Source of the DNA: an uncultured Prevotellaceae bacterium
GTDB lineage: Bacteria; Bacteroidota; Bacteroidia; Bacteroidales; Bacteroidaceae
DNA: 64,000 nucleotides
NCBI GenBank assembly: GCA_902781315.1
Contig: CACZIT010000012.1
Location: 1-64,000, forward strand
Direction of reading: 5' to 3'
Numbering within the stretch: position 1 is the first letter of the stretch; every line of letters begins with the position of its first letter. Positions 1,648 through 54,875 of the stretch are shown here, in pieces. The notes beneath the pieces are model-generated. The model was given only the letters and a program-made list of their open reading frames with translations, ran no database searches and was not told the origin of the DNA. The position numbers and the translations under genes are program-made.

Positions 1648-2178
1648 CTATTCAGCGAAGAGTTCCTTCATCTGTTGCTCCATCGTGGCGGTAGCTTCGT
1701 CAGCATCGATAGAGGCCAGGGCGGTCTGCATCTCCTGAAGCACGACCGACGGGTCGGTGACGCGCTCGCCATAGACGTAGGCCACGCATTGGTTCTGCCG
1801 CTCATAGCCGTACCACATGGAGCCGAGCGTGAAGAGCAGGAGCAGCGAGGCAGCGAGGGAGAGCCAGACGCACCAATACCCACCCCCAACCCCTCCCGAG
1901 GGGAGGGGAGTTTGACTAGTTTTGTAGGTAGCATTATCAGCAGGAAGAGATTTCAGACTCCCCTCCCCTCGGGAGGGGTTGGGGGTGGGTATCTGGGTGC
2001 TGGGTATCTGGGCGTCGAGCCTGCCCAAATCCAGCATCATCTCCCTCAACGCTTCCAGATCGGCAGGCAGTGTCTCGGCCTCGCCATAGAGTTCGTAGAG
2101 ACGGCGCTCCTCGGCCAGCGAGGTCTCGCCGTCGAAGAAGCGCTCAGTCAGCGTCCGTATTTCAAGTTCATTCATCAT
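1648..2178 (-). CDS. membrane anti-sigma-like protein carrying an in-frame repeat insertion
   Basis: A 176-residue protein starting three bases after the sigma factor stop, so very probably translated with it. Residues 1-57 form a helical acidic domain (TERFFDGETSLAEERRLYELY) of the sort that opens Bacteroidota anti-sigma or regulatory proteins. One transmembrane helix lies at about 101-123, and the last 50 residues would be periplasmic. No HxxxC zinc motif is present. Residues 58-100 are not part of any such family: they are the translation of an inverted-repeat element (PTPNPSRGEGSL ... TPLPSGGVGGG) that also interrupts genes near 52-54 kb. It separates the cytoplasmic domain from the membrane anchor. 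Confidence 0.8.
   Translation of the reverse strand: MMNELEIRTLTERFFDGETSLAEERRLYELYGEAETLPADLEALREMMLDLGRLDAQIPSTQIPTPNPSRGEGSLKSLPADNATYKTSQTPLPSGGVGGGYWCVWLSLAASLLLLFTLGSMWYGYERQNQCVAYVYGERVTDPSVVLQEMQTALASIDADEATATMEQQMKELFAE
1877..1992 (-). repeat. PTPNPS-type inverted-repeat element, copy inside the anti-sigma-like gene
   Basis: Two arms of about 35 bases (1878-1913 and 1956-1991) are near-perfect reverse complements. Each arm carries an inner palindrome built on CCCCTCCCGAGGGGAGG. The 40-base spacer resembles the spacers of the copies near 52 and 54 kb. The element keeps the gene open on the minus strand. A short direct duplication (ATCTGGGTGCTGGGTATCTGGG) follows at 1991-2012. Confidence 0.9.
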
Positions 2179-2822: not shown

Positions 2823-3704
2823 TTATTGCTTAAATACCCGTGTCACAAACGGCAGACAGGTGTAGAGGGCGGAGTGCCAATACTCCCAGGTGTGGCCGCC
2901 ATCACGAACGCGCAGCTGGCAGGGGATACGGGCTTCGCGCATGGCCTGATAGAACTCCAGATTGCGGTCGAGCAGGAAGTCGTCGTCGCCACAGTCAACA
3001 AACCACTGCACCGTGCGCAGCTGCCTCTTCACCTCGTCGGTGGCTTCACGCAGGAACTTCGTGCAGCCGAGGTTGCGCACCGACACATAGAGTTGCCCCT
3101 CCATGCTCTCGAGGTCGGTGTTCTGCTCTTGTTCGGGGGTGTACTGCGGCAGTTCCATCAGCGCACTCATGGCATAGCATGCACCAAACAGGTCGCAGTG
3201 GCGCTCGGCATAGCTCGTAGAGCCACCACCCCCCATCGACAGGCCTGCCACGGCGCGGTGCTGCTTGTCGCCAATGACGCGATACTGCTTCTCCACCTTC
3301 GGCAGCAACTCGTTGAAGAAGAAGTCCTCGTAGGCCCAGCCCTTCATGTTGAAGTAGCCGTTCCACTCCTTTCCGACCACGCCGCCGGCATTCGGCATGA
3401 CGATAATCATCTCACAAGCCTCGCCCGAAGCCACCAGCTGATCCATCACGTCCTTCACATGTCCGCGGCCGTCCCAGTCCTTGTTGGTTCCCCACATGCC
3501 ATGCAGGAGATAGAGCACGGGGTATTGGCGGTCTTTGTCCTGTTCGAAACTGCGGGGAATGAACACGTTATAGGCCCGCCACGCCTTCAGCGTCTGGCTG
3601 TAGATGCTGTCGGTCACCACTTTGCTCTGAGGTCCCCAGCCTTGAGCCATTCCCATTGCACACTGCACAAGGCACCATGCGAAAATCAGAAGTTGTTTCT
3701 TCAT
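2823..3704 (-). CDS. secreted alpha/beta-hydrolase, esterase D-type
   Basis: A 293-residue protein with a signal peptide (MKKQLLIFAWCLVQCAMGMA). The esterase D / feruloyl-esterase fold is shown by YPVLYLLHGMWGTNKDW at about 60-76 (oxyanion loop), the nucleophile elbow AGLSMGG with Ser155, FVDCGDDDFL as the likely acid strand, and GGHTWEYW holding the likely catalytic His. Family members cleave acyl esters from sugars, including acetyl or feruloyl groups on plant xylans; the substrate here is not shown. The open frame extends upstream to 3944, but I chose the ATG at 3704 because the signal peptide begins there. A possible -7 box (CAAAGATA read on the plus strand) lies at 3746-3753. Confidence 0.92.
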   Translation of the reverse strand: MKKQLLIFAWCLVQCAMGMAQGWGPQSKVVTDSIYSQTLKAWRAYNVFIPRSFEQDKDRQYPVLYLLHGMWGTNKDWDGRGHVKDVMDQLVASGEACEMIIVMPNAGGVVGKEWNGYFNMKGWAYEDFFFNELLPKVEKQYRVIGDKQHRAVAGLSMGGGGSTSYAERHCDLFGACYAMSALMELPQYTPEQEQNTDLESMEGQLYVSVRNLGCTKFLREATDEVKRQLRTVQWFVDCGDDDFLLDRNLEFYQAMREARIPCQLRVRDGGHTWEYWHSALYTCLPFVTRVFKQ

Positions 3705-52117: not shown

Positions 52118-53614
52118 ATGTACGACTTCGACAAACCCATCAACCGTCGCGGCACCAACTGTGTGAAATGGGATGAACCCACCCCCCACCCCTCCCAAGG
52201 GGAGGAGAGTCTGGATACTATATGTGATAGAAACGCTGCAACCGAAACTAACCAAGCCCCCCTCCCCTCGGGAGGGGATGGGGGTGGGTTAATCCCCCTC
52301 TGGGTGGCCGACATGGACTTCGAGGCAGCACCCGCCATCCGCGAGGCGCTGCGCAAGCGCGTCGACCACGGCGTGTTCGGCTATGCCATTGTGCAGCCAA
52401 GCTACTACGACGCCGTCATCCGGTGGTACGAGCGTCGCCACCAGTGGCACATCCGCCGCGAGTGGATTCTATACACCACAGGCGTCGTGCCCGCCATCTC
52501 GGCCGTCATCAAGGCCATCACCATGCCCGGCGAGCGCGTGCTCATCCTCACACCCGTCTACAACTGCTTCTTCTCCTCCATCCGCAACAACGGCTGCGAG
52601 GTCTTGGAAAGCAAACTCGTGCCGATAGAGGCAAAGAGACCCACCGCCCAAACACCCACCCCCAACCCCTCCCAAGGGGAGGGTAGTCTAAATACCCTTT
52701 CTCATCAAGACATAGCCACAGAAGCTAATCAAGCTCCCCTCCCCTCGGGAGGGGGTGGGGGTGGGTGTCTGGGGGGTGGGTGTCTCCTCACCTACTCCGT
52801 AGACTGGGACGACTTCGAGACGAAGTGTGCCGACGAGAAGACCACCGTCTTCCTGCTCTGCAACCCTCACAACCCTGCCGGACGCGTCTGGACGCGCGAC
52901 GAGCTGCAGCGCATGGCCGACATCTGCCAGCGCCACCACGTGCGCGTCGTCAGCGACGAAATCCATTGCGAACTCGTCATGCCCGGCCATGAGTTCGTGC
53001 CGATGGGAAGACTCTCCCCCCTGCCCCTCTCTGAAAGCGAGGGGAGTAAATACCCTCAAGGCGATGACCCGCAAGCAGAAATGCATTCCACTCCCCTCCC
53101 TTTACGGGAGGGGCAGGGGGGTGGGTCTCCAGTGATCTGCTGCTCGCCCTCCAAGTCGTTCAACACCGCAGGCCTGCAGATGGCCAACATCATCTGTGCC
53201 GACCCCGAGACGCGCCGACGCATCGACCGCGCCATCAACATCAACGAGATCTGCGACGTCAACCCCTTCGCACCGCTTGCCGTCGAGGCTGCCTACAACG
53301 AGGGCGCCGAGTGGATAGACGAGCTCAACCAGTACCTGTGGGGCAACTATCAGGCGCTACTCGCCTTCTTCGCCGAGCACCTGCCACAGCTGAAGGTCTT
53401 CAACCTCGAGGGCACCTACCTCGTCTGGGTGGACATCACTGCCACCGGCCTCACCTCCGACCAACTGGAAGAGAAACTCCTCAGCGAAGCTAACGTCTGG
53501 GTGAACAGCGGCACGATGTATGGCACCGACGGCTACATCCGCATCAACATCGCCACCCAGCGCGCCCGCCTCATGGAAGGACTACGGAGGATGGCGAGGG
53601 TGCTTGCCCCCTAA
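52118..53614 (+). CDS. MalY/PatB-family aminotransferase interrupted by three in-frame repeat insertions
   Basis: A PLP-dependent class I/II aminotransferase or cystathionine beta-lyase. Landmarks are LIPLWVADMDFEAAPAIREA, FLLCNPHNPAGRVW, VVSDEIHCELV and the PLP-lysine loop SPSKSFNTAGLQ (Lys346). Relatives have about 385-390 residues; this has 498. The excess lies in three blocks: residues 20-57, 173-223 and 300-337, each the translation of an inverted-repeat element (PTPHPSQGE...APLPSGGDGGG; PTPNPSQGE...APLPSGGGGGG; SPLPLSESEGS...TPLPLREGQGGG). Core motifs on both sides stay intact and in frame. The first block lies between the usual N-terminal arm and the substrate-loop strand. Activity is unproven. 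Confidence 0.92.
   Translation: MYDFDKPINRRGTNCVKWDEPTPHPSQGEESLDTICDRNAATETNQAPLPSGGDGGGLIPLWVADMDFEAAPAIREALRKRVDHGVFGYAIVQPSYYDAVIRWYERRHQWHIRREWILYTTGVVPAISAVIKAITMPGERVLILTPVYNCFFSSIRNNGCEVLESKLVPIEAKRPTAQTPTPNPSQGEGSLNTLSHQDIATEANQAPLPSGGGGGGCLGGGCLLTYSVDWDDFETKCADEKTTVFLLCNPHNPAGRVWTRDELQRMADICQRHHVRVVSDEIHCELVMPGHEFVPMGRLSPLPLSESEGSKYPQGDDPQAEMHSTPLPLREGQGGGSPVICCSPSKSFNTAGLQMANIICADPETRRRIDRAININEICDVNPFAPLAVEAAYNEGAEWIDELNQYLWGNYQALLAFFAEHLPQLKVFNLEGTYLVWVDITATGLTSDQLEEKLLSEANVWVNSGTMYGTDGYIRINIATQRARLMEGLRRMARVLAP
52176..52290 (+). repeat. PTPNPS-type element, first copy in the aminotransferase gene
   Basis: Arms 52176-52212 and 52256-52290 are near reverse complements (CCCACCCC...CCTCCCAAGG and CCTCGGGAGG...GGGGTGGG). 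The spacer contains GAAACTAACCAAG, like the spacers at 52690-52735 and 54410-54445. Confidence 0.9.
52653..52784 (+). repeat. PTPNPS-type element, second copy in the aminotransferase gene
   Basis: Arms CACCCACCCCCAACCCCTCC (start) and CCCCTCGGGAGGGGGTGGG (end), with a short extra duplication GTGTCTGGGGGGTGGGTGTC at the 3' side. Translated in the same frame as the first copy. Confidence 0.9.
53010..53128 (+). repeat. variant inverted-repeat element, third insertion in the aminotransferase gene
   Basis: Arms ACTCTCCCCCCTGCCCCTCT and ACGGGAGGGGCAGGGGGGTG. The sequence is related in style to, but distinct from, the PTPNPS copies, and resembles the hairpin at 2750-2812. Confidence 0.85.
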
Positions 53615-53647
53615 CATAGGGGGTTGGGGGTCTCTTCTAGCCCCCAA

Positions 53648-53692
53648 TGGTTCAAGTGGTTCAAGTGGTTCAAATGGTTCAAGAGGTTCAAA
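53648..53692. repeat. nonamer tandem array after the aminotransferase gene
   Basis: Five 9-base units (TGGTTCAAG with single changes), exactly 45 bases, beginning 34 bases after the aminotransferase stop. Confidence 0.92.
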
Positions 53693-53814
53693 ACCCCAAA
53701 AACAGAAGATGATATGAATAATACTCGAGACCCCCAACCTGCCCTCCGTCGCGAATGAGGGATTCGCTCCCCTTTGTGGGGCCGCAGCCACACCGGTGGC
53801 TGCTCTGAAGGCCC

Positions 53815-53966
53815 CAGTCGCCCGAGGGGAGGGGGGCTTGAATAGCTATCATAACAATCTAAAGCCTATTGAAATGAACAATCCTAACTTTAAACATAGC
53901 CCTAATGCTAATCAAACTCCCCTCCCCTCGGGAGGGGCTGGGGGTGGGTGTCTGGGGGGTGGGTTC
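53815..53966 (+). repeat. PTPNPS-type element at the start of the CutC gene
   Basis: A degenerate left arm (CCCGAGGGGAGGGGGGC, 53820-53836) and a well-kept right arm (CTCCCCTCCCCTCGGGAGGG onwards to 53966). The spacer ends CTAATGCTAATCAA as in the copy at 54363. It supplies the start codon region and the first 30 codons of the CutC frame. Confidence 0.8.
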
Positions 53967-54875
53967 CACTTCGAAGTCTGCGCCAACAGCGTGGAAAGCT
54001 GCATCGCTGCCCAGCAGGGCGGCGCCGACCGCGTGGAACTCTGTGCCGGCATTCCCGAGGGTGGCACCACGCCGTCCTACGGCGAAATTCGCCAGGCACG
54101 CCGCCTCCTCGATGAGGGAGCAGCCCGCGGACTGAAACCCACCCGCCTGCACGTCATCATCCGTCCGCGAGGCGGCGACTTCCTTTACACCGAACTCGAG
54201 CTGCAGCGCATGCTCGACGACATCCGCATCTGTCGCGAACTCGGTGCCGACGGCGTTGTCTTCGGTTGCCTACGTCCCGACGGCTCTCTCGACACCGAGG
54301 CCAACGCCCGCCTCATGGAAGCAGCCAGGCAGAGACCCACCCCCAGCAGACCCACCCTCCAGACACCCACCCCCAGCCCCTCCCAAGGGGAGGGTAGTTT
54401 AGATACCTTTTCTTCTGATGATGCAACCTCTAATGCTAATCAAGCTCCCCTCCCCTCGGGAGGGGCTGGGGGTGGGTGTCTCTCCATCACTTTCCACCGC
54501 GCCTTCGACCGCTGTGCCAACCCCACGCAGGCCCTCGAGGAACTCATCCGGCAAGGCTTCGACCGCGTCTTGACCTCCGGACAGCAGCCCACCGCCGAGC
54601 AGGGTATTCCCCTGCTCCGCCAGCTGCACGAACAGGCCCGCGGCCGCATCATCATCCTGGCCGGCTGTGGCGTCAACGAGCAGAACATCCGACGCATCTA
54701 CGACGAGACGGGCGTCAGCGAGTACCACTTCTCCGCCCGCGAACCCCTGCGCAGCCAGATGCTCTTCTCCAATCCCGATGTCTATATGGGAGCCAAGGGT
54801 GCCGACGAAGACACCATCCTCCGCACCACGGCACGCCGCGTCAGCGAAACCATCAGGCAGCTGAAAGAGCAATAA
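53874..54875 (+). CDS. cutC: CutC-family protein with repeat-derived N-terminus and one internal insertion
   Basis: A TIM-barrel protein of the CutC family, historically linked to copper homeostasis; the true activity is uncertain. The core starts at residue 31 with FHFEVCANSVESCIAAQQGG and continues ADRVELC, LHVIIRPRGGDF, DGVVFGCL, ITFHRAFD and RVLTSGQQPTAEQG. From the ATG at 53874 it has 333 residues, against about 245-250 in relatives. Two blocks are repeat translation: residues 11-30 (TPLPSGGAGGG) and about 153-202 (PTPSPSQGEGSL...APLPSGGAGGG). The second sits between the barrel elements ending LMEAAR and starting SITFHRAFD. The frame is open further upstream to 53796 through another arm, so the true start is uncertain. 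Confidence 0.92.
   Translation: MNNPNFKHSPNANQTPLPSGGAGGGCLGGGFHFEVCANSVESCIAAQQGGADRVELCAGIPEGGTTPSYGEIRQARRLLDEGAARGLKPTRLHVIIRPRGGDFLYTELELQRMLDDIRICRELGADGVVFGCLRPDGSLDTEANARLMEAARQRPTPSRPTLQTPTPSPSQGEGSLDTFSSDDATSNANQAPLPSGGAGGGCLSITFHRAFDRCANPTQALEELIRQGFDRVLTSGQQPTAEQGIPLLRQLHEQARGRIIILAGCGVNEQNIRRIYDETGVSEYHFSAREPLRSQMLFSNPDVYMGAKGADEDTILRTTARRVSETIRQLKEQ
54333..54480 (+). repeat. PTPNPS-type element inside the CutC gene
   Basis: Arms at about 54363-54397 (CACCCACCCCCAGCCCCTCC start) and 54446-54480 (ending GGGGCTGGGGGTGGGTG). A partial extra left piece (ACCCACCCCCAGCAGACCC) precedes it at 54335-54354. In frame with the gene. Confidence 0.9.

Follow-up and report, generated by a model that had tools for sequence, protein, structure and literature searches.

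The C-S Lyase Gene and Its Three Inserts

The window, a stretch of 64,000 nucleotides from an uncultured rumen Prevotellaceae bacterium whose nearest relatives are Prevotella and Prevotellaceae, carries a stop-free gene of 498 residues for a PatB/MalY-type C-S lyase (hereafter MalY) and, downstream of it, a cutC gene. Both genes contain in-frame palindromic elements, and a further one lies near the start of the window:

52118..53614, + strand: host gene, PatB/MalY-type C-S lyase with three in-frame inserts (498 aa)
52177..52289, + strand: element 1, family A REP doublet (residues ~21-57)
52637..52785, + strand: element 2, family A REP doublet with an extra outer pair of ends (residues ~174-224)
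52654..52766, + strand: inner element of element 2
53009..53128, + strand: element 3, family B REP doublet (residues ~299-337)
53821..53964, + strand: partly degraded family A element at the cutC start, spacer and right arm in the open frame
53877..54875, + strand: cutC gene with one element at its start and one inside (Pfam CutC, 214 bits)
54348..54481, + strand: family A doublet in frame inside cutC, 85% identical to element 2 over 134 nt
1859..2009, - strand: family A doublet in frame in the open reading frame 1651-2178, a codon-model gene call

The assignment to the PatB C-S lyases rests on the NCBIfam family TIGR04350 (378.6 bits against a cut-off of 340), together with the PLP lysine and the fold. 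A sequence-only reading of this DNA had described the gene as an aminotransferase interrupted by three in-frame inverted-repeat inserts, with the PLP lysine at 346 intact, and both points were borne out. The frame is open throughout, and inverted-repeat arms were found at 52170-52217/52249-52296 for block 1 (81% complementary), 52635-52686/52734-52785 for block 2 (88%), and 53009-53047/53090-53128 for block 3 (85%). When the folding of each block was compared with that of 200 dinucleotide shuffles, z-scores of -6.9, -8.7, and -7.7 were obtained for blocks 1, 2, and 3, respectively, and for none of the blocks did any of the 200 shuffles fold as well as the real sequence. The lysine K346 is invariant in all 49 aligned sequences.

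The unusual length of the enzyme was likewise confirmed. Among 80 homologue loci sampled from named genomes, 78 passed an ORF filter of 370-520 aa; 77 of these ORFs encode 374-436 residues, and the remaining one, which comes from the closest relative found, encodes 484. Alignment with homologues showed that relatives are mostly shorter at the three blocks: in a search of 60 genus genomes (own genome included), the relatives' protein matches listed came mostly as the pieces 57-168, 225-300, and 338-496, the parts that relatives lack thus being the three blocks; one exception among the matches listed is genome G047, with a single match over 222-496. The proposal that the whole excess lies in these blocks holds in this respect, but not as pure addition, as at sites 1 and 3 the insert replaces a short native loop. 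In the structures 6qp3 and 4dgt, sites 2 and 3 correspond to gaps of 3-7 residues, while site 1 corresponds to nine residues in 6qp3. In the AlphaFold model, the enzyme fold is kept, with a core pLDDT mostly above 90, and the blocks are low-confidence loops; segments of at least three residues with pLDDT below 50 occur only at 29-48, 50-54, 181-217, and 323-328. In another genome (locus L032, genome G041), the loop at site 2 is lengthened by a different repeat-like stretch, VECRVENVEFATA...STLYTMHSTF.

Anatomy and Families of the Elements

Each block is a REP doublet, in which a 45-50 nt spacer separates two GC-rich hairpins (for example CCCCTCCC-GAG-GGGAGGGG) that point toward one another, with hairpin heads such as ACCCACCCCC on the outer side of the doublet. 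Blocks 1 and 2 belong to family A and block 3 to family B, which refines the sequence-only reading; copies of a third family, C, are found at other places in the own genome. Element 2 is extended, an additional pair of ends lying outside the first. These double ends would fit a nested insertion of family A into family B at this site, which is not claimed here because other family A copies also have long ends. In some family B copies, as judged by eye, the stem is followed immediately by GTAG on one of the strands.

The family A consensus, also read by eye, contains one open frame per strand, and the sense frame encodes the peptide PTPSPSRGEGSL...ANQAPLPSGGAGGG. When this peptide was used in a search, 17 of the best 18 matches were stop-free and lay in open frames of 177-1048 aa. 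A comparison of spacers could score 27 doublets, with MalY elements 1 and 3 left out as their arms are too diverged. Twenty-four of the 27 lie in called genes, and 22 of these 24 share the sense orientation. The core length equals 2 mod 3 in 23 of the 24 in-gene doublets, which is weak as a sign of a frame constraint, being the modal length of the family in most of them and shared by two of the three intergenic doublets.

Distribution in the Genome and Host Genes

A BLAST search with the MalY gene gave 120 matches in the own genome (self and both strands counted), and a perfect hairpin pattern was found 160 times there against none for a reversed-pattern control. The search for the element in Prevotella genomes that the sequence-only reading had suggested found the hairpin pattern in 232 of 398 genus genomes, with 0 to 277 copies in each. 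In 37 regions fetched around the BLAST matches, together with the window, an open frame spans the element in 45 of 52 cases and none does in seven. A Pfam domain (E 1e-5) was detected in 28 of the 30 open frames scanned; one of the two frames without a domain (L053) is probably read on the wrong strand. The hosts include LeuRS, the NAD-dependent DNA ligase LigA, the diaminopimelate epimerase DapF, RsmF, a SpoU methylase, a P-type ATPase, a GH97 protein, and CutC, and further hosts examined were a helicase, a DUF554 protein, a creatininase, an HlyD-type gene, and an ABC-type ATPase taken for UvrA. Some of these host genes are usually essential. In LigA (L052), a second, diverged family B element is present at 2985-3110, about 0.27 kb past the start of the first one. 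The presence of three inserts in one conserved enzyme had been regarded as striking; the three are confirmed, but with so many other hosts MalY is one case of a genome-wide pattern and not a special gene.

As the fetched regions had been picked by similarity to in-gene copies, the first 50 hairpins listed were also sampled, unselected. Under our own codon-usage model, by which the coding density of the window is 88%, 30 of these hairpins are inside called genes and 20 outside; two of the 30 lie within 20 codons of the called start. Grouped into doublets, the hairpins of the same sample give 11 in genes and seven intergenic. Because the gene caller accepts only open frames, it would score a gene that an element had disrupted as intergenic. 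Among 22 intergenic places listed, 21 are no more than about 31 bp away from the 3′ end of some called gene, and four (L056, L062, L068, and L108), where the genes on either side are near and on the same strand, might be broken genes.

Empty and Occupied Sites in Related Genomes

The flanks of 14 own genes, with the insert omitted, were matched to relatives. Empty sites were found for LeuRS, the helicase, DUF554, GH97, and the creatininase. For instance, the stretch from F-x-V to TIFTT in LeuRS has seven residues in six relatives versus 39 in the own protein, and the corresponding gap in the Thermus LeuRS structure 1h3n has six. The own LeuRS and GH97 lack the residues of the native loop, as does the own MalY at sites 1 and 3; the insert thus occupies the position of the loop. 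Of 37 sister rows, 18 show no more than 17 residues at the site concerned, and such short rows exist for 11 of the 14 sites. At the LigA, GH97, and P-type ATPase sites, no such hairpin was present in the two sisters retrieved for each, and at the LeuRS site the sisters showed only a different insert of 26 residues, in genome G399. This LeuRS (L214) carries the unrelated insert LTSKQVEGNNSSTRQLVNSST at the loop that holds family A in the own genome.

The three nearest relatives, RUG178 (G398; MalY locus L114), RGIG7592 (G399; L115), and RUG12005 (G400), carry elements at some of these sites, and the occupants often differ. At MalY site 1, family A is present in both the own genome and RUG178. 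Site 2 holds family A in the own genome, family B in RUG178, and a short remnant-like stretch in RGIG7592, while site 3 holds B in the own genome, A in RGIG7592, and a single hairpin in RUG178. The SpoU site has A in the own genome versus C in RUG178, and the creatininase site has A versus a reversed A in RUG12005 (judged by peptide). At the DUF554 site, family A in the own genome is matched by B in RUG178, a partly duplicated A in RGIG7592, and a single hairpin in RUG12005; at the HlyD site, A occurs in the own genome and RUG12005 and a single hairpin in RUG178; and the RsmF site is B-like in the own genome, RUG178, and RGIG7592. A further family (CTTAGATGAAAGATTAG...) was seen in the MalY and CutC loops of locus L116, at 1986-2069 and 3194-3277, the two copies being 81% identical to each other.

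A uniform test, in which orthologous sister sites and control windows of the same ORFs were screened for perfect GC-rich stems with a minimum of 7 bp, detected stems at 22 of 49 sister sites (RUG178, 13/18; RGIG7592, only 4/13; RUG12005, only 5/18) versus 45 of 752 control windows, so element sites are common to the sisters well beyond the control. Sites therefore persist across sister species while the occupant often differs. The sister loops are too different around the junctions to define an insertion target.

Divergence of the Inserts, cutC, and Copying between Elements

Synonymous divergence was compared between inserts and their flanks for genes that carry an element in both the own genome and a sister. 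The lowest value was found for the HlyD-type gene in the comparison with RUG12005, where the insert dS is 0.057 versus 0.71 and 0.70 in the flanks; with two synonymous differences in 45 codons, the inserts are more than tenfold less diverged than the flanks. This near identity (L072 and L233) suggests a recent transfer or an exchange confined to the element. Insert dS is also low for RsmF (0.23 versus 1.44 and 0.93) and the helicase (0.17 versus 1.19 and 1.30), both compared with RUG178, although palindromic arms may be kept for other reasons, which would lower dS. In the other three of the six comparisons, insert dS is not clearly lower, as under plain vertical descent: MalY site 1 with RUG178 (0.533 versus 0.598), UvrA with RGIG7592 (0.83 versus 0.77 and 0.83), and RsmF with RGIG7592 (0.80 versus 1.49 and 0.85).

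The codon model calls the neighboring cutC gene as 53796-54872. There is no Met beside the motif FEVCAN, and the nearest upstream ATG, at 53877, is located within the spacer of the degraded element, which, judged from the sequence, may supply the cutC start codon. Between the enzyme gene and cutC, a 9-nt repeat (GGTTCAAGT-like) occurs four times at 53646-53691 of the window, and a similar run with the open-frame reading GSNGSNGSRGS lies upstream of cutC in RUG178. At the position of the internal cutC doublet, RUG178 has family B, judged by peptide. In RUG178, the insert of MalY site 2 matches that of the adjacent, unrelated cutC gene at 96% identity over 128 nt, the similarity stopping near the element edges; RUG12005 has another pair of inserts at MalY site 2 and cutC, with 81% identity over 84 nt. 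In the own genome, where both inserts belong to family A, the spacer of the cutC element is nearer to a copy on another contig (L046, 0.87) than to MalY element 2 (0.71), and the closest to MalY element 2 among the elements compared is the site 1 element of RUG178 (0.83). The 56 BLAST places in the own genome are clustered, with 28 pairs within 3 kb versus 2.6 expected and a maximum of 10 in 2000 simulations. By hand count, near neighbors in the own genome showed no excess of the same family (17 of 28 pairs versus an expected fraction of about 0.53). Taken together, these data speak more for copying from element to element, partly at short range, than for plain vertical descent; elements may also have been inserted independently into preferred loops.

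Candidate Mover and Comparison with Known Systems

Three genes for Y1 transposases (Y1_Tnp, PF01797) were identified in the own genome, two above the NCBIfam IS200/IS605 cut-off and the third just below it (50.6 versus 55). None of the three reaches the NCBIfam cut-off for a REP-associated transposase (RAYT), the scores being 23-24 bits versus 80. Perfect hairpins do not directly flank the Y1 genes; the nearest are about 1.0 kb away at two loci, and none was found at the third. A RAYT was accordingly set aside as the mover, although the assembly is 95% complete and a RAYT gene could have been missed. An IS200/IS605-type Y1 transposase acting in trans is a possible mover.

Coding palindromes are best known from Rickettsia. 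The Rickettsia palindromic elements (RPEs) are described as palindromic sequences of about 105-150 bp that encode a conserved peptide and lie in frame in conserved genes (PMC10969869, PMC2229807, as far as consulted). The elements described here share the palindromic structure, at about 100-150 bp, the in-frame position in conserved genes, and the recurrent peptide. They differ in the phylum of the host, in having a REP doublet as the unit, and in the turnover of occupants among sisters, so that the likeness is one of behavior. RPE-like behavior had been predicted from the sequence, and the dispersed copies, the open frames in many conserved genes, and the empty sites in many relatives agree with it; our analysis thus supports the view that the MalY blocks behave like RPEs, with Prevotella as the host.

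A close published counterpart consists of intragenic REPs and REP dimers of the GTAG and CGTC families, short palindromes in frame inside ORFs (PMC3733652). In the parts of that study considered here, REP dimers are described in uvrA and REP copies in genes for DNA ligase and tRNA synthetase, with some genes holding several REPs, as are different REPs at about the same recB site in two Xanthomonas species, and its authors also propose that loops tolerate REPs. Most REPs are intergenic there versus 30 of 50 sampled hairpins in called genes here. Prevotella was not found in its main text, and the sections considered are without the exchange of families at the same site between sisters, the change of orientation, and the copying between neighboring genes seen here. 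REPINs, as outlined in the sections considered of PMC3116915, are inverted REP pairs with a spacer that form a long hairpin, the doublet being the likely mobile unit, and the present elements have this structure. However, REPINs are defined there extragenically and tied to RAYT genes flanked by REPs, whereas coding copies dominate our sample and the own genome has no RAYT over the cut-off. A likeness also exists to MITEs and the enterobacterial RU, small non-autonomous inverted repeats that produce in-frame gene fusions (PMC2759123 and PMC2229807, in the passages considered); MITEs are recognized by a target-site duplication and a parent transposon whose ends match, while the likeness here rests on inverted repeats in genes. 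Given the likeness to RPEs and to published intragenic REPs, the kind of element is already known. Among the matches listed in the open-licence literature, no paper title concerned in-frame palindromes in Prevotella. What is new is the Prevotella system, the coding location of most sampled copies, and the turnover at fixed sites.

Interpretation

The three blocks are best explained as non-autonomous mobile REP doublets that sit in frame, are tolerated in loops, and have since undergone turnover of occupants, a reading to which we assign a probability of about 0.82. Small non-autonomous doublets would have entered the gene in frame, and transcription and translation of the element would yield a flexible Pro/Gly/Ser-rich segment, about 35-50 residues long, within a tolerant loop, whereas insertions that break the frame or the fold would be removed by selection. 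A loop that once carried an element would remain a site for elements, and with time copies of other elements, in part nearby ones, would take the place of its occupant, or the occupant would decay to a short remnant; recombination or re-insertion at the hairpin arms could provide the route of replacement. The dispersed copies, the open frames through conserved genes, the absence in relatives, and the predicted loop position are direct observations, from which we infer that the inserts are translated and that enzyme activity tolerates them. Site persistence with occupant replacement would form a second layer, likewise drawn from observed data.

Ordinary native protein loops with chance palindromic DNA were rejected. 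The regions do fall at variable-length loop positions of the family, but similar DNA is dispersed in unrelated genes and the folding z-scores reach -6.9 to -8.7, which leaves this idea a negligible chance. In addition, what the sequence-only reading had named as decisive against mobile inserts, identical residues in distant genera that lack the DNA repeat, did not turn up among the 80 homologue loci. An artefact of assembly or binning, or a set of decaying pseudogenes, is hardly more credible: the records of the nearest relatives are metagenome-derived and the own genome is in 60 contigs, but the hairpin occurs in more than half of the genus genomes, including genomes of different studies, and MalY has an open frame, an invariant catalytic lysine, and a dN well below dS (0.078 and 0.598 in codons outside the inserts, own gene versus RUG178). 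The inserts might also be lost on the way to the working protein, either skipped by translational bypassing or excised at the RNA or protein level. Mobile bypass elements occur in some yeast mitochondria, and both the very stable transcript hairpins and the presence of inserts in genes such as LeuRS and LigA would suit such removal. Removal would need no open frame, so the 45 of 52 elements with a spanning open frame and the stop-free family A peptide in 17 of the best 18 matches count against it; this argument is partly circular, as the in-gene set was itself called by open frames, and we consider removal very improbable.

Domestication, in which the inserts are kept as useful loops and not merely tolerated, deserves more attention but is still improbable. 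Sister loops hold elements more often than controls, 22 of 24 scored in-gene doublets have the same sense orientation, and the orthologous inserts at MalY site 1 have a dN of 0.209, below their dS of 0.533. However, the flanks have a dN 2.7 times lower than this, the orientation bias may reflect tolerance of the more polar peptide of that strand, the host proteins are unrelated, and the sister occupants differ or are short loops. The strongest competitor, though on balance unlikely, concerns only the turnover: elements at the same site in sisters could be independent insertions into preferred loops or targets instead of replacements. Points in its favor are the opposite orientation at the creatininase site and the change of family seen at the DUF554 and SpoU sites and at MalY sites 2 and 3. 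Against it, the nearest of the compared elements to own MalY element 2 is one that a sister carries at site 1, and the MalY and CutC inserts are alike within RUG178 and within RUG12005 but unlike between these genomes, which points to copying between elements.

With mobile REP doublets as the preferred reading, we tentatively put forward, at somewhat less than even odds, that such loops serve as inherited landing pads. The arms may allow other families, in either orientation, to replace the occupant while the gene stays unbroken, amounting to a cassette-like exchange of loop peptides in conserved proteins of the clade, with copying between neighboring but unrelated genes and possibly, as in the HlyD-type gene, between species.

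For annotation, these results are a warning that Pro/Gly/Ser-rich stretches like PTPSPSRGEGSL...APLPSGGAGGG are mobile DNA and not domains. In a large gut and rumen genus, over half of the sampled copies are in called genes, and sister genomes show empty, occupied, and exchanged states at one site. This would enable the direct measurement of how mobile DNA lengthens proteins, of how loops tolerate it, and of whether existing copies serve elements as safe sites.
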